This document shows positions 1,647 to 61,900 of a DNA stretch of 64,000 bases, one piece after another. The first letter of the stretch is position 1. Every line of letters begins with the position of its first letter. The notes under the pieces were generated by a model. The model was not told where the DNA came from, ran no database searches, and was given only the letters and a program-made list of their open reading frames with translations. The stretch spans positions 310,001 through 374,000 of the forward strand of contig NZ_CP093338.1 of NCBI RefSeq assembly GCF_022637395.1, read 5' to 3'. Both the position numbers and the translations under genes were made by a program. The DNA comes from Shinella sp. H4-D48 (GTDB taxonomy: Bacteria > Pseudomonadota > Alphaproteobacteria > Rhizobiales > Rhizobiaceae).

Positions 1647-1666
1647 GCGTGCCGCTTCCGTAGGCT

Positions 1667-1697
1667 GGAGGAGGCTGGCCGCTGGCCGGCCCCCTCC
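1667..1697 (-). other. intercistronic hairpin after the binding protein gene
   Basis: A 14-bp stem with one mismatch and one G-T wobble (1667-1680 with 1684-1697, loop GCT) lies between the binding protein gene and the permease-propeller gene. There is no U-run. Stem-loops here commonly protect binding protein mRNA and lower expression of the downstream permease. Confidence 0.6.
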
Positions 1698-1706
1698 GTG
1701 TCATCG

Positions 1707-2735: not shown

Positions 2736-2796
2736 GTTTACGTCTCCGCTGAGAATGCGCCCCTCTCCGGGCCGCGGTTGTTGCGATCTTCATGAA

Positions 2797-2817
2797 CGGA
2801 GGGCATTACGCCCTCCG
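2797..2817 (-). other. intercistronic hairpin between permease and binding protein genes
   Basis: A perfect 8-bp inverted repeat (CGGAGGGC, loop ATTAC, GCCCTCCG) sits directly after the stop of the upstream permease gene and before the binding protein gene. There is no U-run, so it is more likely an mRNA-stability or processing element than a strong terminator. Confidence 0.6.
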
Positions 2818-2818
2818 G

Positions 2819-3805
2819 CTAGATGTCCCCCTGCTGACTGGTTTGTTCGTCGCGCGGGTTGAGTTGCCCATCGAGAATGATCGCGCCGAGCAGGATCAGT
2901 GCCTTGATGAGGTTCTGGTGGATATTTGGGAGGTTGAGAATTGTCATTCCATTGAGCAGGATACCGATGAGAAGCGCGCCGACCACCACATTGCGCATAC
3001 CGCCTTTGCCGCCGGACAGTCCGATGCCACCGATCACCACGACAAGAACCACGTCATAGAGCAGGGCCGAATTGACCAACCGGGTGTTCATGCTTTGAAG
3101 GCTGACCGCACTGGCAATGCCCGCCAGCCATGCCAGCACCGCGCTCGCGACAAAGGATGCCACGATCAGGGGCCGCACGGGGATGCCCATTGTGCGCGCG
3201 GCCTGGAAGTTGTCGCCCATCAGGTAGAGAAAGCGACCGGGCCGCGACCAGCGAAGCAAAACCAGCGCTATCAGCACGACCGCCAGAAAGACGATAACGT
3301 CGAGCGGCAGGTCGAACAGACGGGCCTTGCCGAGCCACAGCAGCGATCCCGCCGTCTCAGGTATGTAGATCACATCCTGAGTGAGAATCTGCGAGCGAAC
3401 GAAACCGAAGACGAAGGCGCTCGAGGCCAGTGTGGCAAAGAGCGCGGAAACACCGGCGTAGGCCACCATGAAACCGTTCATCAGGCCAAGTCCGACCGTG
3501 ATGACAGCCACAATCGCCGTGGCCGACCAGAGCGACCATCCAGCCTGCAACAGCTGAAGCTGGATAGCGACCGTCACCACCATGATGGAGACCATCGAGA
3601 GATCGATGCCCCGCCCGATAACGACGATGCCCATGCCCGCCGCCAAGATGCCCAGCACCGATACGCTGCGCACGATATTGAGCAGATTGGCTGGAGCGGT
3701 GAAACCGTCGAGCGCCACAGCGAAACCGGCGAACAACACGACCGCCATTAAGAGAACGATGGTTTCCTGTGTGAATATTCTCAAAAGCGGGCGGTTGCTT
3801 GGCAC
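2819..3805 (-). CDS. CUT2-type sugar ABC transporter permease
   Basis: A membrane permease of the RbsC/BPD_transp_2 family, 328 residues from the GTG at 3805. It has about nine to ten hydrophobic segments, the family signature VIGRGIDLSMVSIM in the first third and the loop VVVIGGIGLSGGKGGMRNVV near residue 260. The GTG at 3805 is preferred because a GGAAG box lies 7 nt upstream. A GTG at 3844 would add 13 residues but has no clear ribosome-binding site. It is the first gene of the operon permease, binding protein, permease-propeller, so the system has two different permeases, which suggests a heterodimeric channel. Substrate unknown. Confidence 0.88.
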   Translation of the reverse strand: MPSNRPLLRIFTQETIVLLMAVVLFAGFAVALDGFTAPANLLNIVRSVSVLGILAAGMGIVVIGRGIDLSMVSIMVVTVAIQLQLLQAGWSLWSATAIVAVITVGLGLMNGFMVAYAGVSALFATLASSAFVFGFVRSQILTQDVIYIPETAGSLLWLGKARLFDLPLDVIVFLAVVLIALVLLRWSRPGRFLYLMGDNFQAARTMGIPVRPLIVASFVASAVLAWLAGIASAVSLQSMNTRLVNSALLYDVVLVVVIGGIGLSGGKGGMRNVVVGALLIGILLNGMTILNLPNIHQNLIKALILLGAIILDGQLNPRDEQTSQQGDI

Positions 3806-3941
3806 CTGATGACTTCCGTCTAATGCATTCGATTTCGGGCGCACCCGTGGTCAAGGTGATACTGCCGGGCGCAAAGGCCGACAATATCTATGGATTTTGT
3901 TTTACATGCTTGATGGGGCAGGTTTTTCCGCCGATTGAGCC

Positions 3942-4940
3942 TCACGCGGAAAATCCGTCCATCGTCAAAATCGTCGATCCGGTGGTCGCTCTGCCTTCGA
4001 GGGCGCGATGCGCCCGCGCCGCCTCGCGCAGGGGTATGCTCGACGCCGCACCCGCGCGCAGGCTGCCATCCGCAAGACGCGCAAAGAGTTCTGCGCTGCG
4101 CTGACGACGCTCTTGCGCGCCCGTCAGATAATCGAACACGACCGGCCGGATGACCGATTTGGAGCCTGCGGCAAGGTCAGAAATTTTGAACCCCTCGATA
4201 GGTCCGGACGCTTGGCCGAAATTCACGAAACGGCCGTGCGGGCGCAGGCTACTCAGCGAGCCGCGCCACGTATCCTTGCCGACGGCATCGAAAACCGTGT
4301 CGCACAGCGCTCCATCCGTGAGTTCCGCCACGCGTGCTGCGAAATCCTCGCGGCAGTACTCGATCACAGCGTCATAGCCATGAGCACGGGCCAGTTCGGC
4401 CTTTTCCGGCGAACCCGCCGTTCCGATCGCGCGCGCCCCCAGTGCCGAAATCCACTGACCGAGCAGCAGTCCCACGCCACCGGCGGCGGCATGAACCAGA
4501 ATTGTCTGCCCCGCCTTGACGGGCGCTGCGGTTGAAACCAACGCCTGTGCTGTCAGCCCTTTCAGCAGCACGGACGCCGCCAGAGCCGTATCGATGCCGT
4601 CGGGAAGCAAGAATAGCCTTTCGGCTGGCATGACGCGCATTTCCCGGTAGGCGCCGGTGCGTTCCAGATAGGCGACACGCTGGCCGACCGAAAAATCCTC
4701 GACGCCCGGCCCGATCGCTACAACGGTGCCAGCCGCTTCCGCACCCGGGACGAGCATCTCGCCCGGCCAGGGATAAAGCCCGGAGCGATAGTAGGTATCG
4801 ATGAAGTTAAGCCCTGCCGCTTCCTGACGGATAAGAACCTCACCCGGGCCTGGCGTATCAACGGCGAACTCCGCCCATTCCAGAACCTCCGGGCCACCGG
4901 GCTTGCGTGCAACAACCGCGCCAGCATTCATCGGCGCCAT
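3942..4940 (-). CDS. quinone oxidoreductase / zeta-crystallin family NADPH reductase
   Basis: A 332-residue medium-chain dehydrogenase/reductase of the QOR type. The N-terminal GroES-like domain carries GLNFIDTYYRSGLYPW and PGAEAAGTVVAIGPGV. The Rossmann part has VHAAAGGVGLLLGQW near residue 150, the usual NADPH-binding loop of this subgroup. The zinc-binding cysteines of alcohol dehydrogenases are absent, which fits a zinc-free quinone reductase. Expected reaction: NADPH-dependent one-electron reduction of quinones or reduction of an activated alkene. It lies 3 bp downstream of the AhpD-like gene and belongs to the minus-strand set aminotransferase, AhpD-like, reductase, which is divergent from a LysR regulator. 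Confidence 0.9.
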   Translation of the reverse strand: MAPMNAGAVVARKPGGPEVLEWAEFAVDTPGPGEVLIRQEAAGLNFIDTYYRSGLYPWPGEMLVPGAEAAGTVVAIGPGVEDFSVGQRVAYLERTGAYREMRVMPAERLFLLPDGIDTALAASVLLKGLTAQALVSTAAPVKAGQTILVHAAAGGVGLLLGQWISALGARAIGTAGSPEKAELARAHGYDAVIEYCREDFAARVAELTDGALCDTVFDAVGKDTWRGSLSSLRPHGRFVNFGQASGPIEGFKISDLAAGSKSVIRPVVFDYLTGAQERRQRSAELFARLADGSLRAGAASSIPLREAARAHRALEGRATTGSTILTMDGFSA

Positions 4941-4943
4941 GTC

Positions 4944-5354
4944 TCAGCTTTCGACCAGGAACTGCGGATCGATCGGAAGCTGCATGGCATTCAACAGGGC
5001 ATTGGTCTGCGAGGCCATTCCGATGACGGCCAGCAGTTCTTCGTGCTGCGCCTCGGTCATGCCTTTTGCCTTCGCGGCCGCCGTGTGTGAATGGACGCAA
5101 TAGCTGCAGCCGTTGGCGGCCGACACCGCGATGTAAAGCATTTCCTTGACCAGCGGATCGAGCGCGCCAGGCTTGACCATGACATCCTTCAGGCCCGCCC
5201 AAATGCGTTCCAGTGTATCGGGCTGGTTGGCCAGTCCACGCCATACATTGTTGACGAAGTCGGATTTACGAGTGGCCCTGATATCGTCGAACACCGCCTT
5301 AACGCGCGGGTTCGCTTCAACTTCGGCGTCGGTCCACAGACGAACTGTGCTCAT
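4944..5354 (-). CDS. AhpD-like / carboxymuconolactone decarboxylase family protein
   Basis: A 136-residue all-helical protein of the CMD/AhpD family. It has the diagnostic redox pair CSYC followed by HSH (CSYCVHSH near residue 83), as in AhpD-type peroxidase-associated proteins. No signal peptide is seen, so it is probably cytoplasmic. A GAGGAG box lies a few nt before the ATG at 5354. It is the middle gene of a three-gene set with a class IV aminotransferase upstream and a quinone reductase downstream. This suggests a redox or detoxification role linked to that pathway, but the substrate cannot be read from sequence. Confidence 0.85.
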   Translation of the reverse strand: MSTVRLWTDAEVEANPRVKAVFDDIRATRKSDFVNNVWRGLANQPDTLERIWAGLKDVMVKPGALDPLVKEMLYIAVSAANGCSYCVHSHTAAAKAKGMTEAQHEELLAVIGMASQTNALLNAMQLPIDPQFLVES

Positions 5355-5375
5355 TGAAAAACTCCTCTCAAGGCC

Positions 5376-6230
5376 TCAGCCATGTGCCCAATCCCAGTAG
5401 AGCTGCCGCGCCCTGCGTGCGAATGGGCCGTATTCAAAAGTACGGTCGTCGAAACCGAGCACAGGCATGACCTTGGAAATGTTGCCGGTGCTGAATATCT
5501 CGTCCGCCGCCCGGAAATCATCGACCTTCAGCGTCTTCTCGTAGACTTTTACGCCGTCCTGGCGCAGCAGTTCAATGACACGCTGCCGGGTGATCCCGTC
5601 AAGGAATGTGCCGTTCGGGACGGGTGTGAACACAGCGCCGTTCTTGGCGAAGAAGACATTCGATGTCGCCAGTTCCGCGACATTACCGAGCGTGTCGCAA
5701 ACAAGCGCATTGCCGAAGCCCTTGGCGCGTGCCTCCGCCAGCATGCGGGCATTGTTGGGATAAAGGCAGGCGGCTTTGGCATTGACCGGCATCGTTTCCA
5801 ACGTTGGTCGGCGAAAGCGGGTCGTGGTAATCGTGAAGCCACCGGGTACGGCCATGGGCCGCTCTTCCAGGCACAAGGCAAATGCGGTCGATGCCGGATC
5901 GGGCGCAACGACGCTCGCATCGCTTTCCTCCGCCCAGTACATCGGGCGGATATAGATGGCAGCATCGGGCGCGAAATGCTTGAGCCCCTCTTCGACCAGT
6001 TCCATGATGCGTGCGGCGGTTAGTGTCGGCGCGAGGCCAAGCGCGCGAGCGGATTCGTTCACCCGCTCGGCATGAAGGTCGAGATCGGGAACGACACCCT
6101 CAAAACGGCGGGCACCATCGAACACCAGCGAGCCGAGCCAGGTTGCATGCGACCCGGCGCCGAGAATGCGAATATCGCCCTCGTGCCACTGGTTCTCGTA
6201 CCACGTCCACACGGAAGGAGTTTGCGACAT
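5376..6230 (-). CDS. branched-chain-type (class IV, PLP) aminotransferase
   Basis: A 284-residue fold-type IV PLP enzyme related to IlvE and D-amino-acid transaminase. The PLP lysine is expected in VNAKAACLYPNN near residue 150, and the cofactor-binding region ELATSNVFF and the loop GTFLDGITRQRVIEL are present. IYIRPMYW in the first domain fits the substrate pocket of this family. Expected reaction: transfer of the amino group between a branched-chain or related amino acid and a 2-oxo acid. A GAGG box lies 6 nt before the ATG. It is the first gene of the operon and is divergent from the LysR gene at 6346, the probable regulator. It may not be the biosynthetic IlvE, since it is in an accessory operon. 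Confidence 0.88.
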   Translation of the reverse strand: MSQTPSVWTWYENQWHEGDIRILGAGSHATWLGSLVFDGARRFEGVVPDLDLHAERVNESARALGLAPTLTAARIMELVEEGLKHFAPDAAIYIRPMYWAEESDASVVAPDPASTAFALCLEERPMAVPGGFTITTTRFRRPTLETMPVNAKAACLYPNNARMLAEARAKGFGNALVCDTLGNVAELATSNVFFAKNGAVFTPVPNGTFLDGITRQRVIELLRQDGVKVYEKTLKVDDFRAADEIFSTGNISKVMPVLGFDDRTFEYGPFARRARQLYWDWAHG

Positions 6231-6285
6231 CGGAAACCTCGATTTTATACGGTCCTTTACCTACACACACCTTGCCTCATGCGTC

Positions 6286-6326
6286 CAATGCAAATATTCC
6301 ACTTCAATGCATGCACAAATGGCATG
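6286..6326. promoter_or_regulatory. candidate LysR operator between aminotransferase operon and LysR gene
   Basis: The 115-bp divergent intergenic region holds CAATGCA twice (6286-6292 and 6305-6311, 19 bp apart) and an inverted repeat CATGC-N7-GCATG (6310-6326). The repeat contains the T-N11-A spacing typical of LysR-family sites. Function is inferred from position and symmetry only. Confidence 0.4.
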
Positions 6327-6345
6327 GATGTGAAGGGGACGAACG

Positions 6346-7260
6346 GTGGATGAGCGGCTCTTGAAGAGTTTTGTGACGACCGCACAGCTCGGCAGCGTCA
6401 CCTCAGCGGCGGAACGGCTGAACCTCACCCAGCCGGCTTTGTCGCGACAGATCCAGAGGCTTGAGCAGGAGTTGGGCTTGACGCTGTTTCAGCGCAGCGG
6501 CCGAAATCTACGCCTATCCGTGCATGGCGACCGACTCCTCGGCGACGCGCAGGCCGTTCTGGCAGCAAGCAAGCGCCTGCACGACGCTGTTTCGGAAATG
6601 CGCGAGGGAGAATACGGCATCCTGCGGATAGGCGCCTGCTCGCAGATGATCGAGCGGCATATGAGCGAGGTGCTGCCGGCCTGGAAGCAGGACAACCCCA
6701 ACATCGACATCAGGCTGGAGGAAGGCGGCGGCGCCGAGCTTGCCCGCCGTCTCGATGAAAACGAATTGCACTTGGCGATCAATGCCCGCCACTTTGCGCG
6801 GCCGGACCGCTTCAGCCGCGTTGACCTTGGCGCGATGCGCGTGCGCGCCTTTTGCATCCGCTCGGCCTTCACCGCCGAGCCGGACACGGTCACGCTCGCG
6901 CAGCTCTGCTCCAAGCCGCTTCTTCTTCTCAATCGCCGGCATTTCACGCGCGAACTCTTCGAAACGGCCTGCCAGGCGGAGAGCTGCCTCGCGCAGCCGG
7001 CGCTCGAATCGGGATCGCCGCATACCCTGCTGGCTATTGCCCGAAGCAGCGGCGGCGTCGCCATCGTACCGCATATGGGCACGGGCGCAGTCGAAGGCCT
7101 GGTCGCCCACGATATTCTGCACCGCGGCAAGCCACTCGATTTCGAAATGTCGGCGATCTGGCCCTCCTCGGTTCCCCTGCCCGGCTACGGCCACCGGTTC
7201 ATCGCCCACATCCGCGAGCGCCTCTTGCCCGCACCAGCAACCGTGGTCAGCGCGCAGTAA
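6346..7260 (+). CDS. LysR-family transcriptional regulator
   Basis: A 304-residue LTTR. The N-terminal winged helix-turn-helix is clear (SVTSAAERLNLTQPALSRQIQRLEQELGLTLFQR, residues about 17-50), followed by a LysR substrate-binding domain from about residue 90. It starts 115 bp from the divergent aminotransferase gene, the classic arrangement for a LysR activator of the neighbouring operon. The effector is unknown. A plausible one is the substrate or product of the aminotransferase/reductase set. The gene is followed after 56 bp by the convergent fabZ paralogue. Confidence 0.92.
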   Translation: MDERLLKSFVTTAQLGSVTSAAERLNLTQPALSRQIQRLEQELGLTLFQRSGRNLRLSVHGDRLLGDAQAVLAASKRLHDAVSEMREGEYGILRIGACSQMIERHMSEVLPAWKQDNPNIDIRLEEGGGAELARRLDENELHLAINARHFARPDRFSRVDLGAMRVRAFCIRSAFTAEPDTVTLAQLCSKPLLLLNRRHFTRELFETACQAESCLAQPALESGSPHTLLAIARSSGGVAIVPHMGTGAVEGLVAHDILHRGKPLDFEMSAIWPSSVPLPGYGHRFIAHIRERLLPAPATVVSAQ

Positions 7261-7316
7261 GGTTCCGAATGCGGGCAGCGGCAATCCGCTTCGCCAAAAT
7301 TTTATAGCGATAACAG

Positions 7317-7790
7317 TCAGATATATTCATTTTCCTCGATTACGAGCATCGCGCAAACATCTGCCTCAGCGACAACAGCACCGTCGACTTTGGCTTCGCA
7401 ATGAAACTTCCAGACATTGTGCCTCCGGTGGCGCTTGCAGACATGAATTTCAAGCCGATCACCGGGTTCGACGGGTTTTCGAAACCGGGCTTTATCGATC
7501 GTCATGAGATAGACGAGATGGCCGACGCCTACCTGTTTGCGGGCGCATATGGCCCCTGCCGTCTGGCACATCGCTTCAACGATCAGAACGCCCGGCATGA
7601 CCGGGCGCTCGGGAAAATGACCCACGAAATGCGGCTCGTTTGCCGTGACGTTCTTGATGCCGATAGCTGAATTGTCGGCATCGATGTCGATAATCCTGTC
7701 GATGAGCAGAAAGGGATAACGATGCGGCAAAAGCTTCATCAAATCATGGATGCCGACTACACCAAGCGTCGTGCTCATTTCTTCGGACAT
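7317..7790 (-). CDS. fabZ: 3-hydroxyacyl-ACP dehydratase, FabZ family (probable paralogue)
   Basis: A 157-residue hot-dog-fold dehydratase. Seen: the signature [13 protein letters not shown], the catalytic His in [14 protein letters not shown] and the catalytic Glu in [13 protein letters not shown]. The ATG at 7790 ([10 protein letters not shown]) matches the usual start of rhizobial FabZ; the frame stays open upstream only because it is antisense-like to the PAP2 gene. Family reaction: dehydration of (3R)-hydroxyacyl-ACP to trans-2-enoyl-ACP. It is not in the usual lpxD-fabZ-lpxA cluster. Instead it lies 26 bp downstream of a PAP2 phosphatase gene, so it is probably a second copy serving lipid A or special fatty acid remodelling. 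That role is inference. Confidence 0.88.
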
Positions 7791-7816
7791 GATCGCCTCG
7801 CCCAACAGTTTGCGCC

Positions 7817-8560
7817 TCATCGCCGCGCCCTCGTGATGAACCGGCAAATGGCGTCTGAGCGGGGCTCCATCCATCGCCAGATCAGCACCATGGCGAACAT
7901 GGTGAAAAGCCAGCCAAGCATGATGTCGGACAAGAAATGCGCGCCGAACAGAACGCGGTTGAATGCGATCATCAATATGAACGGCACCATTGCCAGAGCC
8001 GCGATCCCTCTCAGCCTTGCCGGGACGAAAACCAGAAGGGAAAGGGCTGCCGCGGCCGCAGACGACTCGCCAGACGGGAAGGAACAACTGCGGCTGCACG
8101 CGGCGGAAAATTGCCAGACCGGCGTAAAGTCGGCGCTTCCGCCGAACTCGTACAGGTCGCGAGGGCGCACGCGTCCAATCAGGAATTTCAGGACATGGAC
8201 GACGATGAATGGCCCAACCGCAAAGCTCAGAAGCACGAACAGCGGCTTGTGGGGCTGGCCGAATTCGTAGCGTTTCGGCCCGAACGCCTGCAGGCCCATC
8301 AATAGCAGCATCGCGCCGATGAGATAGATCTGACCGTCTCGGCCGATCCGCCGCACGGCCTGCAGGAACGGCTGCTCTGCCAGAACGAAGACCTGATCCC
8401 GGGCGAACCATTGTGACACTGCAAGATCAACCATGGGAAAGATCATGAAGAAAAAGCTGACGCAGATGATCGACGTCCCCAGAACGGTCAGCGCTTTGTC
8501 GGCGGTGGACGGCTGTTGGATGGAAAATTTAAGCAGGTCGCTCGATACAGCTTTTTGCAT
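7817..8560 (-). CDS. PAP2-family membrane phosphatase (lipid A phosphatase-like)
   Basis: A 247-residue integral membrane phosphatase with about six hydrophobic segments. The three PAP2 motifs are readable: [11 protein letters not shown] (KX6RP), SFPSGESSA (PSG motif, with Glu where PSGH is usual) and [12 protein letters not shown] (the R-X5-H-X3-D motif). An E-for-H variant in motif 2 is also found in some lipid A phosphatases of rhizobia as far as I recall, but I cannot separate LpxE-like, LpxF-like and undecaprenyl-diphosphatase roles. It forms an operon with the fabZ paralogue and is divergent from a two-component system, supporting a regulated envelope role. Confidence 0.85.
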
Positions 8561-8859
8561 GTCGATCTTTCAACAAGGCGACAGCCGCGACCCGCAAATC
8601 TCTTTCGATTGCCGTGCCGCCGGATGCGCGATTTTGATGGATAGAGCGGTCGCAAGCGACTGGAAGGACGCCGCGCGCTCTGGAACGACGGCAACTTGGA
8701 GCGCGATTATCAAGAAACGGCCAAGAGAGGATCAAGGGCCCGTCCGGAATCGGTTATCCGTCCGTCGAGAGGCCGTTTGGAATTGCGCAAGCCGATCATC
8801 TCGCCGATAGTCGTTGCGCGGCAAAGCCGCGAGTAAAGACAAGGCAGCAAGGCATCACA
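8561..8859. promoter_or_regulatory. divergent promoter region, PAP2-fabZ operon and two-component system
   Basis: This 299-bp gap separates the minus-strand PAP2-fabZ operon from the plus-strand response regulator gene, so it must carry both promoters. CCGTCCG occurs twice 18 bp apart (8740-8746 and 8758-8764). This is a weak candidate for a response-regulator direct repeat. No open frame here looks coding. Confidence 0.4.
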
Positions 8860-9552
8860 GTGGATAATAATCTTGTTCTCATCGTTGAGGATGAGCCGGC
8901 GATTGCAAGAATTCTCGAAGGGTATCTCTTGCGTGATGGCTTCAGGACCGTGCAGGCCGCCGATGGCGAAACTGCCCTTCAGCACCATACGCTCCTGAAG
9001 CCGGACATCGTGCTTCTGGATGTTCGCATCCCGAAATTGGACGGACTTGGCGTGCTCGCCCGCCTTCGGCAAACCAGTTCGACGCCTGTCATCATGGTGA
9101 CGGCGCTTGCCGATGACCTCGACCGATTGAGCGGCCTGCATCTCGGTGCAGACGACTATGTCGTTAAGCCCTTCAACCCGCAGGAAGTCGTCGCGCGGGT
9201 GAAAGCCGTGCTGCGCCGGACGCTTGGGGAGCGACGGGATTCCGTCCGCCGGTTCCGCGAAATAGAAGTCGATTTTTCCAGCTACTCCGTTGTCGTCAAC
9301 CGCGACGGAAAGCGCAGCCCGATGTCCCTGACGCTCAGCGAGTTCCGCATCCTCGCCCATATGATCCGCCATCCGAACCAGGCCTTTGCGCGCGCGGATA
9401 TCCTTGATGCCTGCCTGCCGGAAAGCGATGCGCTCGTGCGTACCGTGGACACACACATTTCCAACCTTCGACGCAAGCTTGAAGAGCTGGGTCAGACCGG
9501 TTTCTTCCCTGCCGTGCGTGGCGTCGGCTACCGGTTCTTTGATCCCCAATGA
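8860..9552 (+). CDS. OmpR/PhoB-family response regulator
   Basis: A 230-residue two-domain regulator. Receiver domain: acidic pair EDE at the N-terminus, phospho-acceptor Asp in IVLLDVRIPKLDG near residue 54, the conserved T in VTAL and K in VVKPFNP. C-terminal winged helix: LTLSEFRILAHM to VDTHISNLRRKLEE and the final GVGYRF. The start is a GTG at 8860 because the receiver begins immediately (VLIVEDEP). Its stop overlaps the start of the sensor kinase gene by 4 bp (ATGA), so the two are translationally coupled. It probably controls the divergent PAP2-fabZ operon. Confidence 0.93.
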   Translation: MDNNLVLIVEDEPAIARILEGYLLRDGFRTVQAADGETALQHHTLLKPDIVLLDVRIPKLDGLGVLARLRQTSSTPVIMVTALADDLDRLSGLHLGADDYVVKPFNPQEVVARVKAVLRRTLGERRDSVRRFREIEVDFSSYSVVVNRDGKRSPMSLTLSEFRILAHMIRHPNQAFARADILDACLPESDALVRTVDTHISNLRRKLEELGQTGFFPAVRGVGYRFFDPQ

Positions 9553-10715
9553 AGATGCCCAGATTCCCGACCCTGTCGCTTGCCACGCTCACCGCGACCG
9601 TGATTACGACGATGCTCTTGCTCAGCGTGAGCATCGCCTATTTGGGGGTGACCTGGTATTCGACCTATCTCGAGGACAGCATGGCCGACGCGCTGCCACC
9701 CGAGGCTGCGAACGCCTACAAGATGGTCAATGAAGGCCGGGTTCCCGACAGCAACGCGCTCAAGACCCTGCTTGAGCATCTTAACGAGCAGGCAGCACCG
9801 ACAGATTTCAAGATCCAGCTCGCTGTCCTGATCTGCGGCCTGCTTTCCGCTCTCGTCTGCGCCGTTATCGGCATCTATCTTGCGCGACGTATCGCCCGGC
9901 CTCTGGAGGATCTCACTGTCGCTGCGACATCCCTCACGTCGGGCGATTTTTCGGCCCGGGTTGCCGCTTCATCCAGCAGCACGCGCGAGGTGGCAAGCCT
10001 TGTAGAGACCTTCAACGCTCTCGCCACAAGCCTCGACAGGATGGAGGAGCGACTGCGCTTCAACAACATGGCCATTGCGCACGAGCTGCGTACGCCGCTG
10101 ACGATACTGCAGGGTGCGTTGCAGGGCATGGTAGACGGCGTCTTCGCGATGGATCGGAAGATCATTTCCGATCTTCTCCTCCAGGTGGAAGGTCTGGGGA
10201 AGATCGTCGAGGATTTGCGCACTCTTTCCTTGGCGATCGGCCAGAAGCTCGTGATGCAGCGGCAGCCAATCGATGTGGCAGAGGTCGTGGAAACCGTCCT
10301 TGCGGCAGCAAAACCTATGCTGGATGCGAGCCAGATGGAAATCGAAGCCGGGCTTCAGCCGGCCTGCATATCCGCGGACCCCTCGCGAATCCGCCAAGCC
10401 GTGCTGGCAGTTCTGGAAAATGCCAGCCGCTATGCGCAAAGCGGTGGATGGCTGCGGTGTGAAACGGAACGGCTGCCGGACGAAAGCGTGATCATTCGTA
10501 TTCTCGACCGAGGTCCAGGCTTTCCTGAAGACATGGATGCAATAGCCGTCAATCCTTTCTGGCGGGGCGACGCGTCACGCTCGCGCGCCACAGGCGGAAC
10601 GGGGCTGGGGCTCTCGGTGGTTCAGGCGATTGCGACCGCGCATGGCGGCCATCTGGAATTTACCAACCGGCAGGGCGGTGGCGCGCTGGTCGCCATCCAT
10701 TTGCGCCCCGAATAG
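9549..10715 (+). CDS. membrane sensor histidine kinase
   Basis: A 388-residue HATPase sensor: first transmembrane helix at about residues 13-35, a short periplasmic loop of about 50 residues, a second helix at about 90-112, a HAMP linker (RRIARPLEDL), the dimerisation domain with H-box AIAHELRTPLT (His near residue 178), then N-box VLENASRYA and G boxes DRGPGFPED and GGTGLGLSVV. All kinase residues look intact. The small periplasmic loop resembles sensors of membrane stress or cationic compounds (BaeS/AdeS-like). It is the partner of the response regulator immediately upstream. The signal is unknown. Confidence 0.92.
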   Translation: MKMPRFPTLSLATLTATVITTMLLLSVSIAYLGVTWYSTYLEDSMADALPPEAANAYKMVNEGRVPDSNALKTLLEHLNEQAAPTDFKIQLAVLICGLLSALVCAVIGIYLARRIARPLEDLTVAATSLTSGDFSARVAASSSSTREVASLVETFNALATSLDRMEERLRFNNMAIAHELRTPLTILQGALQGMVDGVFAMDRKIISDLLLQVEGLGKIVEDLRTLSLAIGQKLVMQRQPIDVAEVVETVLAAAKPMLDASQMEIEAGLQPACISADPSRIRQAVLAVLENASRYAQSGGWLRCETERLPDESVIIRILDRGPGFPEDMDAIAVNPFWRGDASRSRATGGTGLGLSVVQAIATAHGGHLEFTNRQGGGALVAIHLRPE

Positions 10716-10785
10716 CAATGGAGCAGGCGCGCGCTGAATGTGGGAGCCGATCGGCAAGGCCCTCGACGCAATCCGCGTTGGCCCC

Positions 10786-11706
10786 TCAGCAGAACAACTC
10801 GCCAACCCGATTGAACTGCGATTTGCTTGCGTTTCGCCGGTCGCTTCTATCGATCTGCGAATAGGGAACGACGAAGCCATAGGTATCATCCGGCTCACCG
10901 CAGCGTTCGCACCAGAAGCCGTCGATATTTGACAGCAACATAGACTGCCGCCGGGAGCGCCGATAAAGGATCGGGTGCTTGGCCTGCGATATGGCCCGGA
11001 AATGCCGGGTATTTCCTTCTGCGACCAGTCCCTGCAACACCATGAGGATAGCCTCCTTCGGCCGAAGGCCGTACAGATCGCGGGTGGTCTCGACCATCAG
11101 CCGCTTGGCGTTGCGCGGGCCTTGCAGGCTTCCCACCACAAACGTGTACCCTCGCCCTTCGCTCTCACGCACGAATGTGAACCGGACAGTGCATAGTGCC
11201 GCGTTGTCTCGGGTCCGCACAAGCTCGATCCCGAAGGCGCCCTCATGGCGCCCGCCGCAGCGGTCGGCTAGAACGAGACGGCACGAATAGGTGTCGTTGC
11301 GTCCATGTACCTCTCCCATATCGACGGTTTCGCCGCTCCAGAGCCGTATCATGCTGTCTCTCGACAGGATTGTCTCGGCAATCGTGAAATGATCGATGAG
11401 CAGCCTGAGCCGCTGCGAACCGCTCAGGCCGTAGACGAGAAATTTGGACAGCGGCTTCTGCAGAAGATCGTCGTGCGGGAGAGGATAGCCGCGTGACGCG
11501 GCAAAGGCTGCCATCCATCGCCACCATCCCAGGGTAAGCGGCGGATTGGCTGCAAAGCGCATCCAGAGCAGAACACTGCGTTTCCACCGCATTCTCGAAA
11601 CGGCGGTCAGGATGCGCCAGGCCATGGCATGGGGCGGGTTCGGCACCCGCGCTCGATGGGGCGACATGCCCTCAAATGGCAGGGCGCTCAGCTTTTTCTG
11701 TTGCAT
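10786..11706 (-). CDS. VirK/YbjX (DUF535) family protein
   Basis: A DUF535 protein, 306 residues from the ATG at 11706. Recognisable stretches are RLRLLIDHFTIAE, YSCRLVLADRCGGRHEGAFGIEL, YTFVVGSLQGPR and the C-terminal LYGLRPKEAILMVLQGL, followed by AKHPILYRRSRRQSMLLSNIDGFW. VirK/YbjX proteins in enterobacteria are linked to virulence, outer-membrane remodelling and resistance to antimicrobial peptides; the biochemical activity is not known. The frame also allows an ATG at 11823 (345 residues), but that N-terminus is not conserved-looking. It is convergent with the sensor kinase gene. Next to a lipid A phosphatase-like gene and a two-component system, an envelope role is plausible. Confidence 0.82.
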   Translation of the reverse strand: MQQKKLSALPFEGMSPHRARVPNPPHAMAWRILTAVSRMRWKRSVLLWMRFAANPPLTLGWWRWMAAFAASRGYPLPHDDLLQKPLSKFLVYGLSGSQRLRLLIDHFTIAETILSRDSMIRLWSGETVDMGEVHGRNDTYSCRLVLADRCGGRHEGAFGIELVRTRDNAALCTVRFTFVRESEGRGYTFVVGSLQGPRNAKRLMVETTRDLYGLRPKEAILMVLQGLVAEGNTRHFRAISQAKHPILYRRSRRQSMLLSNIDGFWCERCGEPDDTYGFVVPYSQIDRSDRRNASKSQFNRVGELFC

Positions 11707-11889
11707 GATTAATGTCCGTCGGTGATTTTCCGCGAACATCTGCGCCCACATTGTCAAGGTTGTGCGAAGAAAGGGTCTGCCTTTCATGGACGACCGGATG
11801 GCTGATATCGAATGCAGGTGCATCCTGCCGGCACCCGCACCGAAGCACGCAAGTACGCCTTGCCATGGAGTGGCCGCCGGCGCGCTCGC

Positions 11890-53978: not shown

Positions 53979-54062
53979 ATGTCCGACCTCTTCTTTATCG
54001 CGCTTGGCGGCGGCACTCTTCTTGTGCTTGCGTTCTATGCCCGCGCGCTCAACCGTCTTTGA
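53979..54062 (+). CDS. 27-residue membrane peptide at the head of the kdp operon
   Basis: A short frame encoding a peptide with one hydrophobic helix (MSDLFFIALGGGTLLVLAFY then ARALNRL). An ACAGGAGA box lies about 7 nt before the ATG and the gene ends 11 bp before kdpF. Its design (acidic start, single helix, basic end) resembles small ORFs found upstream of kdpF in other bacteria as I recall. It may be an extra small subunit or regulator of Kdp. No homology search was possible. Confidence 0.6.
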   Translation: MSDLFFIALGGGTLLVLAFYARALNRL

Positions 54063-54073
54063 GGAAAACGACG

Positions 54074-54160
54074 ATGGTTGAACCTCTCTTCGGCTTTCTC
54101 GTCGCCATCGGCCTCGGCGCCTATCTCGTCGTGACGCTGCTGCGTCCCGAACGTTTCTGA
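54074..54160 (+). CDS. kdpF: K+-transporting ATPase small subunit KdpF
   Basis: A 28-residue single-helix peptide ending in LLRPERF, the hallmark C-terminus of KdpF. The helix is [15 protein letters not shown]. KdpF stabilises the KdpABC complex in the inner membrane. A GAGGAAA box lies 7 nt before the ATG, and kdpA starts 14 bp after its stop. At this length it is easily missed by gene callers. Confidence 0.88.
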
Positions 54161-54174
54161 TCGGGAGCAGATCC

Positions 54175-55884
54175 ATGACAACAATCGGATGGTTGCAGAT
54201 CAGCCTCCTCTTCCTTGCCGTCCTCCTCGCGATCAAACCGCTCGGGCTCTACATGGCGCGGGTTTTCAGCGGCGAACGAACCTTTCTCTCGCCGGTACTT
54301 GCCCCCGTGGAGGGCGGCTTCTACCGCGTGAGCGGGGTAGATCCGAACAAGGAGCAAAGCTGGCTCGGCTACACGCTTGCCATGCTCACCTTCTCGCTAG
54401 CGGGCTTTCTTGCGCTTTACGCGATGCTCCGGCTGCAAGCCCATCTGCCGTTGAATCCGCAGGATTACCCCGCCGTTCCATCCGATCTCGCCTTCAACAC
54501 CGCGGTCTCCTTCGTCACGAACACCAACTGGCAGAATTACGCCGGAGAAACGACGCTCAGCCATTTCAGCCAGATGGCCGGACTCACCGTGCAGAACTTC
54601 CTGTCGGCGGCCACCGGCATGGCGCTGGCGGTCGCCTTCACCCGGGCGCTCGCCCGCTCCAAGGTCACGACACTCGGCAACTTCTGGGTCGATATGGTCA
54701 GGGCCACGCTTTACGTGCTGCTGCCGCTCTCCATCATGGTCGCGCTCGTCTTCGTCGCCATGGGCCTGCCACAGACACTCGAAGCGTCAGTCACGGCTAA
54801 GACGCTCGAGGGCGCTAACCAGGTCATCTCGCTCGGCCCCGTCGCCTCGCAGGAGGCCATCAAGCAACTCGGCACCAATGGCGGAGGATTCTTCAACGTC
54901 AACGCGGCCCACCCCTTCGAGAACCCAACCGCGTGGTCGAATTACCTGAATATATTGGCCATGCTGTCCATCTCCGCGGCCCTCGTCTACAGTTTTGGCC
55001 AGATGGTCGGCAATCGCCGACAGGGCTGGGCCCTTATCTCTGCGATGGCAATCCTGCTGATCGCAGGCGTCGCCATTACATACTGGGCAGAGGCGCAGGG
55101 CAACCCGATCCTGACCGCAGTCGGCGTCGACCCGGCGCTCGGCAACATGGAAGGCAAGGAAGTCCGCTTCGGCCAGGCCATGACCGCACTCTATGCAGCA
55201 GTGACCACCGGCCTGTCAGATGGTGGCGTCAACGGCATGCACGGCTCGTTCACAGGCCTCGGCGGCCTGGTGCCGATGTTCCTCATGCAGCTTGGAGAAG
55301 TGCTGCCAGGCGGTGTCGGCTCGGGCCTTTACGGGATGCTGGTCTTCGCGCTGCTCTCCGTCTTCGTCGCCGGCCTCATGGTCGGTCGGACGCCCGAATT
55401 CCTCGGCAAGAAGATCGAGGGGCGCGAGATGACATTCGCCATGCTGGCTGTCCTGATCCTGCCGCTCGTGATCCTCGGCTTCACCGCCGTCTCGGCGATG
55501 CTGCCCTTCGCGGTTGCCAGCATCGGCACATCAGGCCCGCACGGCCTGTCGGAAATCCTCTATGCCTACACGTCGACAGCGGGCAACAACGGCTCGGCCT
55601 TCGGCGGGCTTACCGGCAACACGCCCTGGTACAACACCACGCTCGGGATCGCGATGCTGCTCGGCCGCTTCGCCTATGTCGTGCCGGTCATGGCAATCGC
55701 CGGATCGCTCGCCGCCAAGGTGAAGGCCCCGGCCTCGGCCGGCACCTTTCCAACCGACGGCCCGCTCTTCGTCGGGCTCCTGATCGGCATCATCCTTATC
55801 CTCGGCGGCCTGCAATTCTTCCCCGCACTGGCGCTCGGCCCTGTTGTCGAACACCTCGCCATGCTCGCCGGCCAGACCTTCTGA
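54175..55884 (+). CDS. kdpA: K+-transporting ATPase, potassium-binding subunit KdpA
   Basis: A 569-residue K+ channel-like subunit with about ten membrane segments. Selectivity-filter-like loops are visible: [11 protein letters not shown] near residue 115, [19 protein letters not shown] near 230, [15 protein letters not shown] near 345 and [12 protein letters not shown] near 467. [14 protein letters not shown] at the N-terminus is typical. Full length and intact. It is followed 10 bp later by the start of the damaged kdpB. Confidence 0.96.
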
Positions 55885-55894
55885 AGGAACTCCC

Positions 55895-57944
55895 ATGTCC
55901 ACGCCTACAAGCCGACAGATCACAGGGCGCCAGGTCTTCTCGATCCGTCGATCCTGTTTCCGGCAATGCGCGACGCCGTCGTCAAGCTCGATCCCCGCAA
56001 GTTGCTGCGCAATCCGGTCATTTTCGTAACCGAGGTCGTCGCTGCGGTCGTGACGATCCTCTTCATACGCGACCTCGCCTCCAATCCGCCCCAGGCCGGT
56101 TTCTCCGGCCAGATCGCCGCATGGCTCTGGTTCACAGTGCTGTTTGCCACCTTCGCCGAAGCCGTGGCCGAGGGCCGAGGCCGCGCCCAGGCCGACAGCC
56201 TGAAGAAAACCAAATCCGACCTGGTCGCCCGCAAGGTCGCGGCAAACGGCACGACGGAGACGATCCCGGCATCCAGCCTCAAGGTCGGCGATGTCGTGCT
56301 CATTGCCGCCGGCGAATTCATTCCTGGCGATGGAGAGGTTATCGAGGGCGTCGCCTCGGTTAATGAAAGCGCCATCACCGGCGAGTCCGCGCCCGTCATC
56401 CGGGAATCGGGCGGCGATCGGTCTGCCGTCACCGGCGGCACGCAGGTGCTGTCCGATGAGATCAGGGTGAAGATCACGGTCCAGCCCGGCTCCTCCTTCG
56501 TCGACCGCATGATCGCGCTGATCGAGGGCGCACAGCGCCAGAAGACACCGAACGAGATCGCATTGTCGATCCTCCTGTCCGGCCTCACGCTGATTTTCCT
56601 GTTCGTCTGCGTCGCGATATGGGGGTTGGCCGGCTATTCGGGCACGGTGCTTTCCGTGACGGTTCTTGCAGCCCTTCTCGTCACGCTGATCCCGACGACG
56701 ATCGGCGGCCTGCTCTCGGCCATCGGCATCGCCGGCATGGACCGCCTTGTGCGTTTCAACGTCATCGCCACGTCGGGCCGCGCCGTTGAGGCCGCCGGCG
56801 ACGTCGATACGCTACTTCTCGACAAGACGGGCACCATCACGTTCGGCAATCGTATGGCGAGCGACTTCCTGCCGGCCCCCGGCGTCACCGCAGGAGAACT
56901 GGCTGAGGCCACCCTCCTCGCCTCGCTTTCCGACGAGACACCGGAAGGCCGATCGATCGTAGCGCTCGCTACCGGCGAGTTCGGCGTTGCCATGCCGAAC
57001 ATGACCTTCGATGCCGTCATCGACTTCACCGCCGAGACGCGGCTTTCCGGCGTCGATATGGGCGCACGCCGCCTGCGCAAGGGCGCCGTGGATGCCGTGC
57101 TGCGGTTCGCTGGCCTCAAGGAACAGAACGGGCCAGCCGATTTCCACAGCGCGGTGGAAAGGATCGCCCGCACCGGAGGCACGCCCCTTGCCGTCGCGGA
57201 CGGCGAGCGCCTACTCGGCACCATCCACCTGAAGGATGTGGTGAAACCCGGGATCAAGGAGCGCTTCGCAGCGCTTCGCGCCATGGGAATCCGCACCGTC
57301 ATGGTCACGGGCGACAACCCGGTGACGGCTGCAGCCATTGCGTCGGAAGCCGGCGTGGATGACTTCCTCGCCCAGGCCACGCCGGAAGACAAGCTCGCCT
57401 ATATTCGCCGCGAGCAACAGGGCGGCCGTCTCATCGCCATGTGCGGCGACGGCACGAACGACGCGCCGGCGCTCGCCCGGCCGATGTCGGAGTCGCGATG
57501 CAGACCGGCACCCAGGCCGCGCGCGAAGCCGCCAACATGGTGGATCTCGATTCAAGCCCGACCAAGCTCATCGAGATCGTCGAGATCGGCAAACAACTCC
57601 TGATGACACGCGGCTCGCTGACGACCTTCTCCATCGCCAATGACGTGGCCAAGTACTTCGCCATCATCCCGGCGCTGTTCGTCGCGACCTATCCGGCTCT
57701 CGACGCCCTCAACGTAATGGGGCTGGCCTCGCCGCAATCGGCCATCCTGTCGGCGGTCATCTTCAACGCACTCATCATCGTGGCGTTGATCCCCCTCGCA
57801 CTGAAGGGCGTGGCCTATCGTCCCTCGGGTGCAGCATCGCTCCTGCGCCGCAACCTGCTGGTTTACGGCGTCGGCGGCCTCGTCCTGCCCTTCGCCGGCA
57901 TCAAGCTCATTGACGCCGCCGTCAGCGCACTTCATCTGGTGTAA
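55895..57944 (+). pseudogene. kdpB: kdpB with two single-base frameshifts
   Basis: P-type ATPase subunit split over three frames. From the ATG at 55895 (GAAGGA box) the frame reads [15 protein letters not shown], then the expected continuation [22 protein letters not shown] is in the next frame (from about 55939). That frame carries the P-type ATPase body: TGES, the phosphorylation site DKTGTIT (near 56820) and the hinge [13 protein letters not shown]. Near 57478 it shifts again: [34 protein letters not shown] and the last membrane helices are in the third frame to 57944. At 57477-57481 GCCCGGCC stands where GCC CAG GCC is expected, one base missing; the first shift also equals one missing base. 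kdpA, kdpC, kdpD and kdpE are intact. This is either a real double mutation or sequencing error. Confidence 0.88.
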
Positions 57945-57946
57945 TC

Positions 57947-58516
57947 ATGCTCAATCATCTCAGACCCGCCTTCACCCTGGTCGTTGTCCTGACCGTTCTC
58001 ACCGGCCTTGTCTATCCGCTCACAATCAACGGTATCGCTCAGGCGGTGATGCCGGCGAAGGCCAATGGCAGCCTCATCGAGCGTGACGGCGCGGTCGTCG
58101 GTTCGATGCTCATCGGGCAGAACTTTATGGCTGATCGCTACTTCTGGCCGCGTCCCTCGGCCACCGGCCCGGGCCCGTACAATGCCGCGGCCTCGTCCGG
58201 CTCTAACCTCGGCACAACCTCAGCCAAGCTGCGGGATCGCGTCGCAGCCGATGTCGCCCGCTTGAAGGTCACAGGCATGACATCGCCAATGCCGGCCGAT
58301 GCCGTCACGACGTCGGGCTCTGGTCTCGACCCGCATATCTCACCGGCTTTTGCCGAGGCGCAGGTCCCGCGCATCGCACTGGCTCGGGGGCTGGAGCCAG
58401 CCGTTGTTGCCTCACTCGTCAAGCAGCAGATCGAAGGCCCGGCCTTCGTTATTATCGGCGAGGCGAGGGTGAATGTGCTAAAGCTCAACCTGGCGCTCGA
58501 TGCCTTGAATATGTGA
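57947..58516 (+). CDS. kdpC: K+-transporting ATPase subunit KdpC
   Basis: A 189-residue KdpC. One N-terminal membrane helix (FTLVVVLTVLTGLVYPLTINGIAQ), then the periplasmic part with GSMLIGQNF, RYFWPRPSAT, YNAAASSGSNLG, ADAVTTSGSGLDPHISPAFAEAQVPRIA and GEARVNVLKLNLAL. All standard for the family. It begins 2 bp after the kdpB stop. Essential for Kdp assembly and K+ affinity. Its intact reading frame, despite the damaged kdpB before it, is notable. Confidence 0.95.
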   Translation: MLNHLRPAFTLVVVLTVLTGLVYPLTINGIAQAVMPAKANGSLIERDGAVVGSMLIGQNFMADRYFWPRPSATGPGPYNAAASSGSNLGTTSAKLRDRVAADVARLKVTGMTSPMPADAVTTSGSGLDPHISPAFAEAQVPRIALARGLEPAVVASLVKQQIEGPAFVIIGEARVNVLKLNLALDALNM

Positions 58517-58523
58517 GAGCCTG

Positions 58524-61211
58524 ATGGCGGATGACGACCGCAGGGACGTGCGACGTCCCGACCCGGATGCCCTGCTTGCCCTGACGGAGAAAGACCACCG
58601 GGGCAAGCTCACCGTTTTCCTCGGCGCAGCACCCGGGGTCGGCAAGACCTACGCCATGCTGTCGCGGGCAAAGCGCCTGAAGACAGACGGCGTCGACATC
58701 GTCGTCGGCATTGTCGAAACCCACGAGCGAAGCGAGACGGCGGCACTCCTCGAAGGCCTCGACGTCCTGCCCAGGCGGCGGATCTCCTACCGCGGACGGA
58801 TGCTCGATGAGTTTGATCTCGACGCGGTTCTGGCGAGGCGGCCGCGGATCGTCATCGTCGATGAACTCGCCCATTCCAACCCCGACGACAGCCGCCACCC
58901 CAAGCGGTACCAAGATATCGAGGAACTCATAACGGCCGGCATCGATGTCTGGACGGCCTTGAACATCCAGCACCTCGAGAGCCTGGCAGACGTGGTCGCC
59001 CAGATCACTGGCGTGACCGTACGCGAGCGGGTGCCAGACATCGTGTTGAAGCGTGCAGACGAGGTTCTGCTGGTGGATCTTGCGCCGTCCGAACTGATTG
59101 AACGGCTTCGCGACGGCAAGGTCTATCTTCCGGAAAGCGCAAACCGCGCCGTCGATCGCTTCTTTCGGCTTGGCAACCTGACGGCACTTCGGGAACTTGC
59201 CCTTCGCCGCACGGCCGACCGTGTCGACGACCAGATGGTCGATTATCTCAAGCAGAACGCAATCGACGGCCCCTGGGCGACGGGCGAGCGGCTGCTGGTC
59301 TGTGTGGGATCCGATCCGCTGTCGGAAAAAGTCGTGCGGGTGGCAAGCCGCCTGGCCTCCGGCCTTAACGCGCCCTGGCTGGTCGTGTCGCTCGAGCGGG
59401 CGGACCGTGAGATCGATACGGCCGGGCATGTGCAGCGGATCGAGGCGCTTTTCCGGCTCGCCGAGCAACTCGGCGCGGAAACGCGCCGCGTGATCGGTAA
59501 CGACTTCGTCGAGGAAATCCTGAAGCTCGCGCGCCGGGAACATGTCACTCAGATCGTGATCGGCGCACCGAAACGCGCCGGCTGGCGCAAGCATCTCAAA
59601 CATGCACTTCCGGAGGCGCTGACGAACAGGGCCGCCGGCCTTGGCATTCACATCGTGACGCCGGAGGGGCCTTCCGGTGAGCGCATGCGACGGCCGCTCA
59701 TGATCCCCAAAGCGCAAGCGTGGCGGCAATCGGCGCTGAGCGCCGCAGGCTTCGTCGCTCTCACAGTGCTGCTGGGCAAGACGATCGACATCTTCGTCGA
59801 TCTGCCCAATATCTCCCTGCTCTTTCTCCTCTCGGTGCTCGGCGCTTCCGTCGCCGGGGGCTATGTCGCTGCATTCCTGGCGGCCATTCTTTCGGCCCTT
59901 GCCTACAACTTCTTCTTCATCGACCCGCAGCGCACCTTCACGATTGCCGCGCCGCATGAAGTTTTTGCGCTTTTCGTGTTCCTGATCGTGGCAATGATCG
60001 CGGGCGGCTTCGCATCCCGCATCCGTCAACAGGCGGAGGTGGCGGGCCTGCGGGCAACCGAACTGCAATCGCTTCACGACTTCTCCCGAAAGCTCGCGAC
60101 AACGGAAAAGAGCGAGGATGCGATCTGGCTGACCGTTTCGCAACTCCAATCGCGATTGAAGCGCAACGTCGTTTTCCTGCTTCCTCGAACGGGCGACCTC
60201 GGTGTGGCAGCTGCCTGGCCACCGGATACGGATCTCGACGTTACCGACCTGACTGCCGCACGATGGACCCATGACAAACGCGAGCCGGCGGGTCACGGCA
60301 CCGGCACGCTTCCCAACAGCCGCTTCGAGTTCCGCCCCTTGCTAGGTCCACATGGAATCGTCGGGGTCTGTGGCGTCGAGCATGCTGCCGAGCCGCTCGC
60401 CCTGAATGCGGAGCGCATGTTGAGCGCTGTTCTCGATCAGACAGCGATTGCCCTTGATCGCGCTCGGCTTGCGGACGAGACGATCGTCCAGGCGGCGCGC
60501 CTGGAGGGTGAACGTTATCGCGATGCGCTGCTTTCATCCATTTCGCATGACCTGAGGACGCCCCTCGCCACCATTACCGGCGCTGTCACCGCGCTTCGCG
60601 AGCTCGGCGAGCGGATGAGCGCGGAGAGCCGCGACGACCTCCTGAAATCGATCGAAGAAGAAAGCGGCAGAATGAGCCGCTTTGTTGCGAACCTGCTCGA
60701 TATGACGCGAATTGAGGCCGGTACGCTGAAGCCGAAGCGGGACTGGATCGACGTGACCGACGTGGTGCAGTCCGCCGTCGAGCGCACACGCAAGCACGCA
60801 CCGGGACATATCATCGAGACGAGCATCGCGACCGACCTGCCGCTGATCCGAGGCGACAGCGTCCTCATCTCCCAGGTGCTTTTCAATCTGCTCGACAACG
60901 CCATCAAGTATGGTGGCAGGGAGCCGGTCAACGTCTATGCGCGCCGCGAGGGCAAGGATGTGATTATCTCGGTCACCGATCTCGGCAAGGGCATTCCGCC
61001 AGAGGACCTGGACCGCATCTTCGAAAAATTCTATCGCAGGGGTAACCCGGACGGGCGCGCGCCCGGCACGGGGCTCGGGCTATCCATCGCGCGCGGTTTC
61101 ATCGAAGCTATGGGCGGCAAGATCCATGCGGAGAGCCCGGCGCTCAAAAAGCGAGGCACACGTATCGTCATGCGGTTTCTCGGAAGCGAAGAAGCAAAGG
61201 GCAGTGCCTGA
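58524..61211 (+). CDS. kdpD: K+-sensing histidine kinase KdpD
   Basis: An 895-residue KdpD with all parts. Cytoplasmic KdpD domain: LTVFLGAAPGVGKTYAML (Walker A near residue 35), VGIVETHERSETAAL and VDELAHSN. A USP-like domain follows (about 255-370), then four closely spaced membrane helices (about 400-500), a GAF-like part, the H-box SISHDLRTPLATI near residue 675, N-box LFNLLDNAIKYGG and G boxes DLGKGI and GTGLGLSIA. It senses low K+ or osmotic stress and phosphorylates KdpE. It starts 7 bp after kdpC and its stop overlaps the kdpE ATG (TGATG). Confidence 0.96.
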   Translation: MADDDRRDVRRPDPDALLALTEKDHRGKLTVFLGAAPGVGKTYAMLSRAKRLKTDGVDIVVGIVETHERSETAALLEGLDVLPRRRISYRGRMLDEFDLDAVLARRPRIVIVDELAHSNPDDSRHPKRYQDIEELITAGIDVWTALNIQHLESLADVVAQITGVTVRERVPDIVLKRADEVLLVDLAPSELIERLRDGKVYLPESANRAVDRFFRLGNLTALRELALRRTADRVDDQMVDYLKQNAIDGPWATGERLLVCVGSDPLSEKVVRVASRLASGLNAPWLVVSLERADREIDTAGHVQRIEALFRLAEQLGAETRRVIGNDFVEEILKLARREHVTQIVIGAPKRAGWRKHLKHALPEALTNRAAGLGIHIVTPEGPSGERMRRPLMIPKAQAWRQSALSAAGFVALTVLLGKTIDIFVDLPNISLLFLLSVLGASVAGGYVAAFLAAILSALAYNFFFIDPQRTFTIAAPHEVFALFVFLIVAMIAGGFASRIRQQAEVAGLRATELQSLHDFSRKLATTEKSEDAIWLTVSQLQSRLKRNVVFLLPRTGDLGVAAAWPPDTDLDVTDLTAARWTHDKREPAGHGTGTLPNSRFEFRPLLGPHGIVGVCGVEHAAEPLALNAERMLSAVLDQTAIALDRARLADETIVQAARLEGERYRDALLSSISHDLRTPLATITGAVTALRELGERMSAESRDDLLKSIEEESGRMSRFVANLLDMTRIEAGTLKPKRDWIDVTDVVQSAVERTRKHAPGHIIETSIATDLPLIRGDSVLISQVLFNLLDNAIKYGGREPVNVYARREGKDVIISVTDLGKGIPPEDLDRIFEKFYRRGNPDGRAPGTGLGLSIARGFIEAMGGKIHAESPALKKRGTRIVMRFLGSEEAKGSA

Positions 61212-61900
61212 TGAATCCGTCGCGTATTCTCGTCGTGGATGACGAGCCGCAGATACAGCGTTTTCTGAAGCCGTCCTTGGCCGCCGCGGGCTACGAGGTG
61301 ATCGAGGCTGTGAACGGCGCCGAGGCGCTCAAGTTCGTTGCAACTCAGGCGCCCGATCTCGTGATCCTTGATCTCGGCCTGCCGGACATGGACGGCAAGG
61401 CGATAATCGCCAGCCTCAGGGCGTGGTCGGACATCCCCATCGTCATACTGTCCGCCCGCGATCGTGAAAGCGAGAAGATCGAAGCACTCGATCTTGGCGC
61501 CGACGACTATATCGAAAAGCCGTTCGGCATCGGGGAGCTGACCGCACGTATCCGCACCGCGCTGCGCCATCATGGTCGGCGCGATGCGATCTCGAGCGTC
61601 ATGGACGTGGACGACCTGAGGATCGATCCTATCAAGCGGCTCGTCACGCGCGCAGGCGAGATCGTGCACCTGACGCCCAAGGAATATGACTTGCTGCTCC
61701 TACTTGCCCGCCACGCCGGCCGTGTCGTGACCCATCGGACCCTGCTGACGAGTGTCTGGGGACCTGCTCATGGCCAGGACATGCATTATCTGCGCGTCTT
61801 CATCGGCCAACTACGCCAGAAGATCGAACGCGACCCTACCCAGCCGCAAATCGTGCGCACGGAGCCCGGCGTCGGCTACCGGATGGCGGAGCCGGATTGA
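61211..61900 (+). CDS. kdpE: response regulator KdpE
   Basis: A 229-residue OmpR-family regulator. Receiver: ILVVDDEPQIQRFLKPSL (typical KdpE start), phospho-Asp in LVILDLGLPDMDG near residue 52, K in YIEKPFGIGEL. DNA-binding domain: HLTPKEYDLLLLLARHAGRVVTHRTLL and MHYLRVFIGQLRQKIE, then GVGYRM. It activates kdpFABC transcription. It is translated from an ATG overlapping the kdpD stop. The next gene, ehuA, is convergent 42 bp away. Confidence 0.96.
   Translation: MNPSRILVVDDEPQIQRFLKPSLAAAGYEVIEAVNGAEALKFVATQAPDLVILDLGLPDMDGKAIIASLRAWSDIPIVILSARDRESEKIEALDLGADDYIEKPFGIGELTARIRTALRHHGRRDAISSVMDVDDLRIDPIKRLVTRAGEIVHLTPKEYDLLLLLARHAGRVVTHRTLLTSVWGPAHGQDMHYLRVFIGQLRQKIERDPTQPQIVRTEPGVGYRMAEPD

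Follow-up and report, generated by a model that had tools for sequence, protein, structure and literature searches.

The kdp operon of Shinella sp. H4-D48 lies near the end of the window, the 64,000-nucleotide stretch of DNA analysed here (positions 310,001 to 374,000 of NZ_CP093338.1), which belongs to contig C2. This contig is 892,686 bases long, and the whole genome amounts to 4.77 Mb in three contigs. The genes follow one another on the + strand in the order kdpF, kdpA, kdpB, kdpC, kdpD, kdpE. As the initial annotation had maintained, the partners of kdpB are sound: kdpF reads as an intact gene, and kdpA, kdpC, kdpD and kdpE contain neither a stop nor a change of frame. The kdpF gene (54074..54160, 28 residues) matches TIGR02115 with 34.1 bits (cut-off 26.85) and also PF09604, kdpA (54175..55884, 569 residues) matches TIGR00680 with 777.9 bits (cut-off 387.7) and has no gap or stop relative to five relatives, and kdpC (57947..58516, 189 residues) matches TIGR00681 with 212.4 bits (cut-off 152.55). 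The sensor kinase gene kdpD (58524..61211, 895 residues) and the response regulator gene kdpE (61211..61900, 229 residues) keep their frames throughout. Their products find the right best NCBIfam models while scoring below the cut-offs (NF007793 with 727.4 bits against 1123, and NF007820 with 250.2 bits against 325), whereas KdpA, KdpC, KdpF and the main body of KdpB pass theirs.

Two other features of the window deserve mention in their own right. At its opposite end, window positions 1-11886 (contig C2 about 306935-321886) belong to a block of about 15 kb that sits between two collinear blocks and is without a counterpart at that place in G019, which among the relatives found has the KdpB closest to that of the window (96 percent identical). 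The Pfam names assigned within the block include a sugar-type periplasmic binding protein, an ABC permease, a zinc-type dehydrogenase, a class IV aminotransferase and a response regulator.

The second feature is a short open reading frame just 5' of kdpF (53979-54062, + strand) for an unnamed peptide, hydrophobic and 27 residues long, MSDLFFIALGGGTLLVLAFYARALNRL. A hydrophobic frame of about 22-28 codons occupies that position in 59 of the 63 kdp loci with recognisable kdpA and kdpF, judged by a filter that takes in length, hydrophobicity and position only; two of the four loci that failed it (L058 and L060) had shown such a frame under a looser pattern. By record title, the source organisms include Alphaproteobacteria, Acidobacteria and others. 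Towards their ends the 59 aligned peptides have an aromatic residue in common (Y in 53 of them and F in 6), with C in 45 of the 59, and then D/E, R and L. Across the window and nine related loci the differences from the window fall 36, 9 and 70 times at the first, second and third codon positions, as expected of a translated frame. No Pfam or NCBIfam model matches the window's peptide, and a literature search for a peptide 5' of kdpF returned no title describing one; a report on Caulobacter, in the part of its text available, mentions an unannotated kdpF and not the peptide 5' of it (PMC8552747). The peptide may belong to the Kdp pump as an accessory component that has so far been overlooked.

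The kdpB gene itself (55895..57944, + strand) is 2050 bases long, compared with 2052 in relatives, and its frame switches twice. The kdp region of the window was aligned with that of G019 and of four Shinella replicons (two from S. oryzae and two from S. sumterensis) that are 89 percent identical to it in DNA, and in this six-way alignment each switch corresponds to one missing base. Over the 7.9 kb of the kdp region there are just two internal gaps, one column each, both in the window's kdpB; two further gap columns at the extreme end of the excerpt are due to excerpt length. The central claim of the initial annotation, that kdpB is broken by two single-base deletions, thus agrees with two one-column gaps against five relatives.

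The positions of the two losses need one correction. The first had been placed near 55938, while the alignment puts it between 55899 and 55900, just 3' of the start codon and about 38 bases further upstream, where the gap occurs in the window only. The body of kdpB is already in the frame of G019 5' of 55938, where 13 of its residues match a stretch in G019, so the 15-residue stretch previously read before that point is mostly out-of-frame translation. The second loss, expected at about 57478, does fall after that base (between 57478 and 57479), within the P domain and immediately ahead of M5, and it cuts off the C-terminal part of KdpB as had been proposed.

What remains of the gene can be described as a body and a tail. 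Translation from the ATG at 55895 stops after 44 residues. The longest open piece begins at ATG 55966, the earliest start codon in frame with the body, and runs to 57603 for 545 residues, the final 41 of which are out of frame. The body carries the DKTGT phosphorylation motif and the GDGTND motif, shows four hydrophobic stretches between 55918 and 57470, and matches TIGR01497 with 724.7 bits over profile positions 8-526 of 675 (cut-off 527.9). The severed tail (57480..57944; 148 residues if read from ATG 57498) contains further hydrophobic stretches and takes up the same profile at 527-672 with 262.7 bits. Body and tail jointly cover the model, but in different frames, so that the one continuous reading frame that KdpB requires is interrupted by two frame changes.

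Compared with the E. coli KdpFABC structures (6hra and 5mrw), the two pieces between them can be aligned with almost the full length of KdpB, which in E. coli is one continuous chain and in the window lies in separate frames. Residues 3-154 of the tail align with 528-679 of the E. coli protein (6hra_B), and the D and K of the tail motif NDVAKY, counted along that alignment, correspond to D583 and K586 of E. coli. These two residues are described, in the available part of the structural report, as highly conserved and as linking the movement of ions with the ATPase cycle (PMC8385062). Nor does the genome hold an intact second copy of kdpB; the tail matches one place only, and the body matches, among the matches listed, its own place and four further P-type ATPases, to which it is about 31-32 percent identical.

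Intact orthologues of kdpB occupy the same place in close relatives, as expected when a unitary pseudogene is at issue. S. sumterensis UPHL-collab-3 (CP132317.1) has the same gene order, about 89 percent DNA identity and the same length over 7.9 kb save two bases; its kdpB is one open frame of 2052 bases and 683 codons (CDS 2896-4947 of the excerpt L160), while that of the window is broken. Among the 26 kdp loci parsed, two of which (L009 and L038) represent a single contig, the frame of kdpB stays open past the hinge as far as its end in 25, and the 26th (L025) did not match the search pattern. In 19 other genomes the KdpB-class match lies in an open frame of 692 residues or longer, compared with 572 here. 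In a broader draw of Rhizobiaceae, KdpB was found at E <= 1e-120 in 73 of 151 genomes, Shinella sp. H4-D48 counted in, and a frame break within a contig occurs in Shinella sp. H4-D48 only; of the other irregular cases among the 73, G097 has its KdpB truncated where a contig begins, G047 has it split across two contigs, and G105 and G183 each give two matches inside one open frame. A search for a second genome of the same species found none, and the two losses are known from one genome.

Are the two bases missing from the cell, or from the assembly alone? The initial annotation left the choice between a recent loss and an assembly error open. An error would mean that kdpB is whole in the living strain and that both losses are local faults of base calling or polishing. 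Several features would suit such an account: both changes are single-base losses, all of the kdp partners are intact, and the clustering of the two could stem from a locally poor stretch. The background rate of frame breaks speaks against it. The alignment of the replicon with that of G019 spans 461,031 columns at 89.1 percent identity, and in it one-base gaps leave Shinella sp. H4-D48 shorter 180 times and longer 233 times, so that one-base losses are not in excess. A frame test on the same alignment, which requires 160 aligned coding bases on both sides and is therefore blind to losses close to the start of a gene, the first kdpB site among them, had its conditions satisfied at 1436 of 2284 sampled columns (about 63 percent) and flagged four events in the 461 kb. 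In two of these Shinella sp. H4-D48 is the intact side; in the other two G019 is, one being the kdpB hinge and the other C2:826268, which lies between genes as read from the alignment. Among the four, kdpB alone stands as a break in Shinella sp. H4-D48.

A second test took 226 open reading frames from S. oryzae pZ25, together 259,566 bases, each of which has an orthologue in G019 as well as in Shinella sp. H4-D48. Of the 308 frames selected at first, 82 had been dropped because they were less than 88 percent identical to G019 or less than 75 percent identical to Shinella sp. H4-D48. Six frames were flagged, three in Shinella sp. H4-D48 and three in G019, the latter near the starts of the frames. 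Besides kdpB, the frames flagged in Shinella sp. H4-D48 are one in which the first 41 residues extend the true gene upstream and an ambiguous one (pZ25 415617-417113) whose 5' matches overlap and are shifted by 22 bases. The break in kdpB is the sole clear internal one in Shinella sp. H4-D48 among the 226 orthologous genes. A generally poor assembly was considered as well, and is ruled out by both tests for the part of the replicon compared.

The sites themselves point the same way. Neither lies in a long homopolymer (the runs are of three), and the sequence context of the second occurs 243 times on the G019 side with only 2 occurrences gapped in Shinella sp. H4-D48, kdpB being one of them, so that this context is no systematic source of error. 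Moreover, two losses within one gene of 2050 bases are more than chance would give: for a second random event to fall in kdpB the chance is about 0.8 percent (2050 of 259,566). A gene that has been disabled readily gathers a second hit, while two independent random errors rarely share one gene of this size. Because the comparable rest of the replicon shows almost no frame breaks, the sequence comparison now leans to a real loss, and an error of sequencing or assembly, while a serious possibility, seems rather unlikely.

The age of the break can be approached through the constraint on its pieces. Estimates of dN/dS are 0.042-0.054 for the body and 0.022-0.032 for the tail, no higher than those for kdpA (0.049-0.064). 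Since both pieces are as constrained as kdpA, the break is either recent or an error: undiminished constraint is expected if the break is recent, and a sequencing error would give the same result, so that constraint kept on both pieces also suits the latter. With no relaxed constraint on either piece, the word "recent" in the earlier wording stands, and its pair of readings, recent loss or assembly error, fits the data.

Strong purifying selection retained on both pieces would also be found if KdpB still worked, either as a body of 545 residues assembling with a C-terminal piece of 148 residues or through ribosomal frameshifting. The tail does have an in-frame ATG at 57498 with GGAG just upstream. 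The arrangement is, however, absent from all relatives read, and the sites are not conserved, the relatives in the six-way alignment running in frame through both. No classical slippery heptamer was seen by eye at the sites, no ribosome-binding site is evident 5' of ATG 55966, and a recent break already accounts for the preserved selection. A split or recoded KdpB is thus very improbable, and we would give hardly any credence to a naturally split form in which the ATPase body and the last membrane helices work in the pump as two polypeptides.

The explanation that best suits these observations is that kdpB is a genuine and recent unitary pseudogene in Shinella sp. H4-D48, which, as far as comparative sequence can tell, is probably the case. 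In a real pseudogene one might have looked for some further sign of decay beside the two losses, and it is slightly surprising that none is visible. On this explanation we infer that the bases are truly missing in the living cell. The first loss would sever the start codon from the body of kdpB, and the second would remove the C-terminal part beyond the phosphorylation domain, with the last membrane helices and with the aspartate and lysine that in E. coli couple ATP hydrolysis to K+ movement. Because the tail holds the equivalents of D583 and K586, a chain stopping at the second site should not pump K+. KdpF, KdpA and KdpC could still be made, giving a pump that would lack a working ATPase subunit. 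High-affinity K+ uptake would presumably be lost, the cell would then depend on Kup and Trk for K+, and one would predict both a dead pump and a growth defect at very low K+.

Such a loss may be tolerable in this genus. Kup and TrkH are present in all 21 genus genomes, Shinella sp. H4-D48 included, and a KdpB-class match is missing in 4 of the 20 other members (G004, G006, G013 and G016, all of them drafts), so that Kdp looks dispensable in the genus. As a separate observation, KdpB of six members (G003, G007, G012, G014, G017 and G020) is 66-67 percent identical to that of the window, while ten other members stand at 86-96 percent, a pattern of sequence identity that suggests two kdp lineages within the genus.

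The Shinella kdpB is a case of the same kind as the published kdpB pseudogene of Francisella tularensis LVS, a natural one that arose by a single-nucleotide change and was confirmed by resequencing, as stated in the accessible part of that report (PMC2813290). In both, a single-nucleotide change has broken kdpB in a locus that is otherwise recognisable, leaving a truncated body and a second open frame downstream. The differences, as far as the same part of the report goes, are that F. tularensis LVS has an insertion and an in-frame 63-bp deletion where Shinella sp. H4-D48 has two one-base losses, that kdpD and kdpE are also broken in F. tularensis while kdpDE is intact here, and that the F. 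tularensis break is common to the three subsp. holarctica genomes compared whereas that of Shinella is in one genome (PMC2813290).

A literature search on kdp in Shinella found a single paper, which deals with a different subject as judged by title and abstract. A kdpBC mutant of Sinorhizobium fredii adapts poorly to low K+ and shows delayed nodulation, according to the part of that study available (PMC9239096). If the losses in kdpB are errors, the assembly needs correcting before K+ physiology is deduced from it. If they are real, they would add a further case in which a high-affinity K+ pump is lost where Kup and Trk persist, and Shinella sp. H4-D48 would be a natural kdpB mutant with kdpDE intact.
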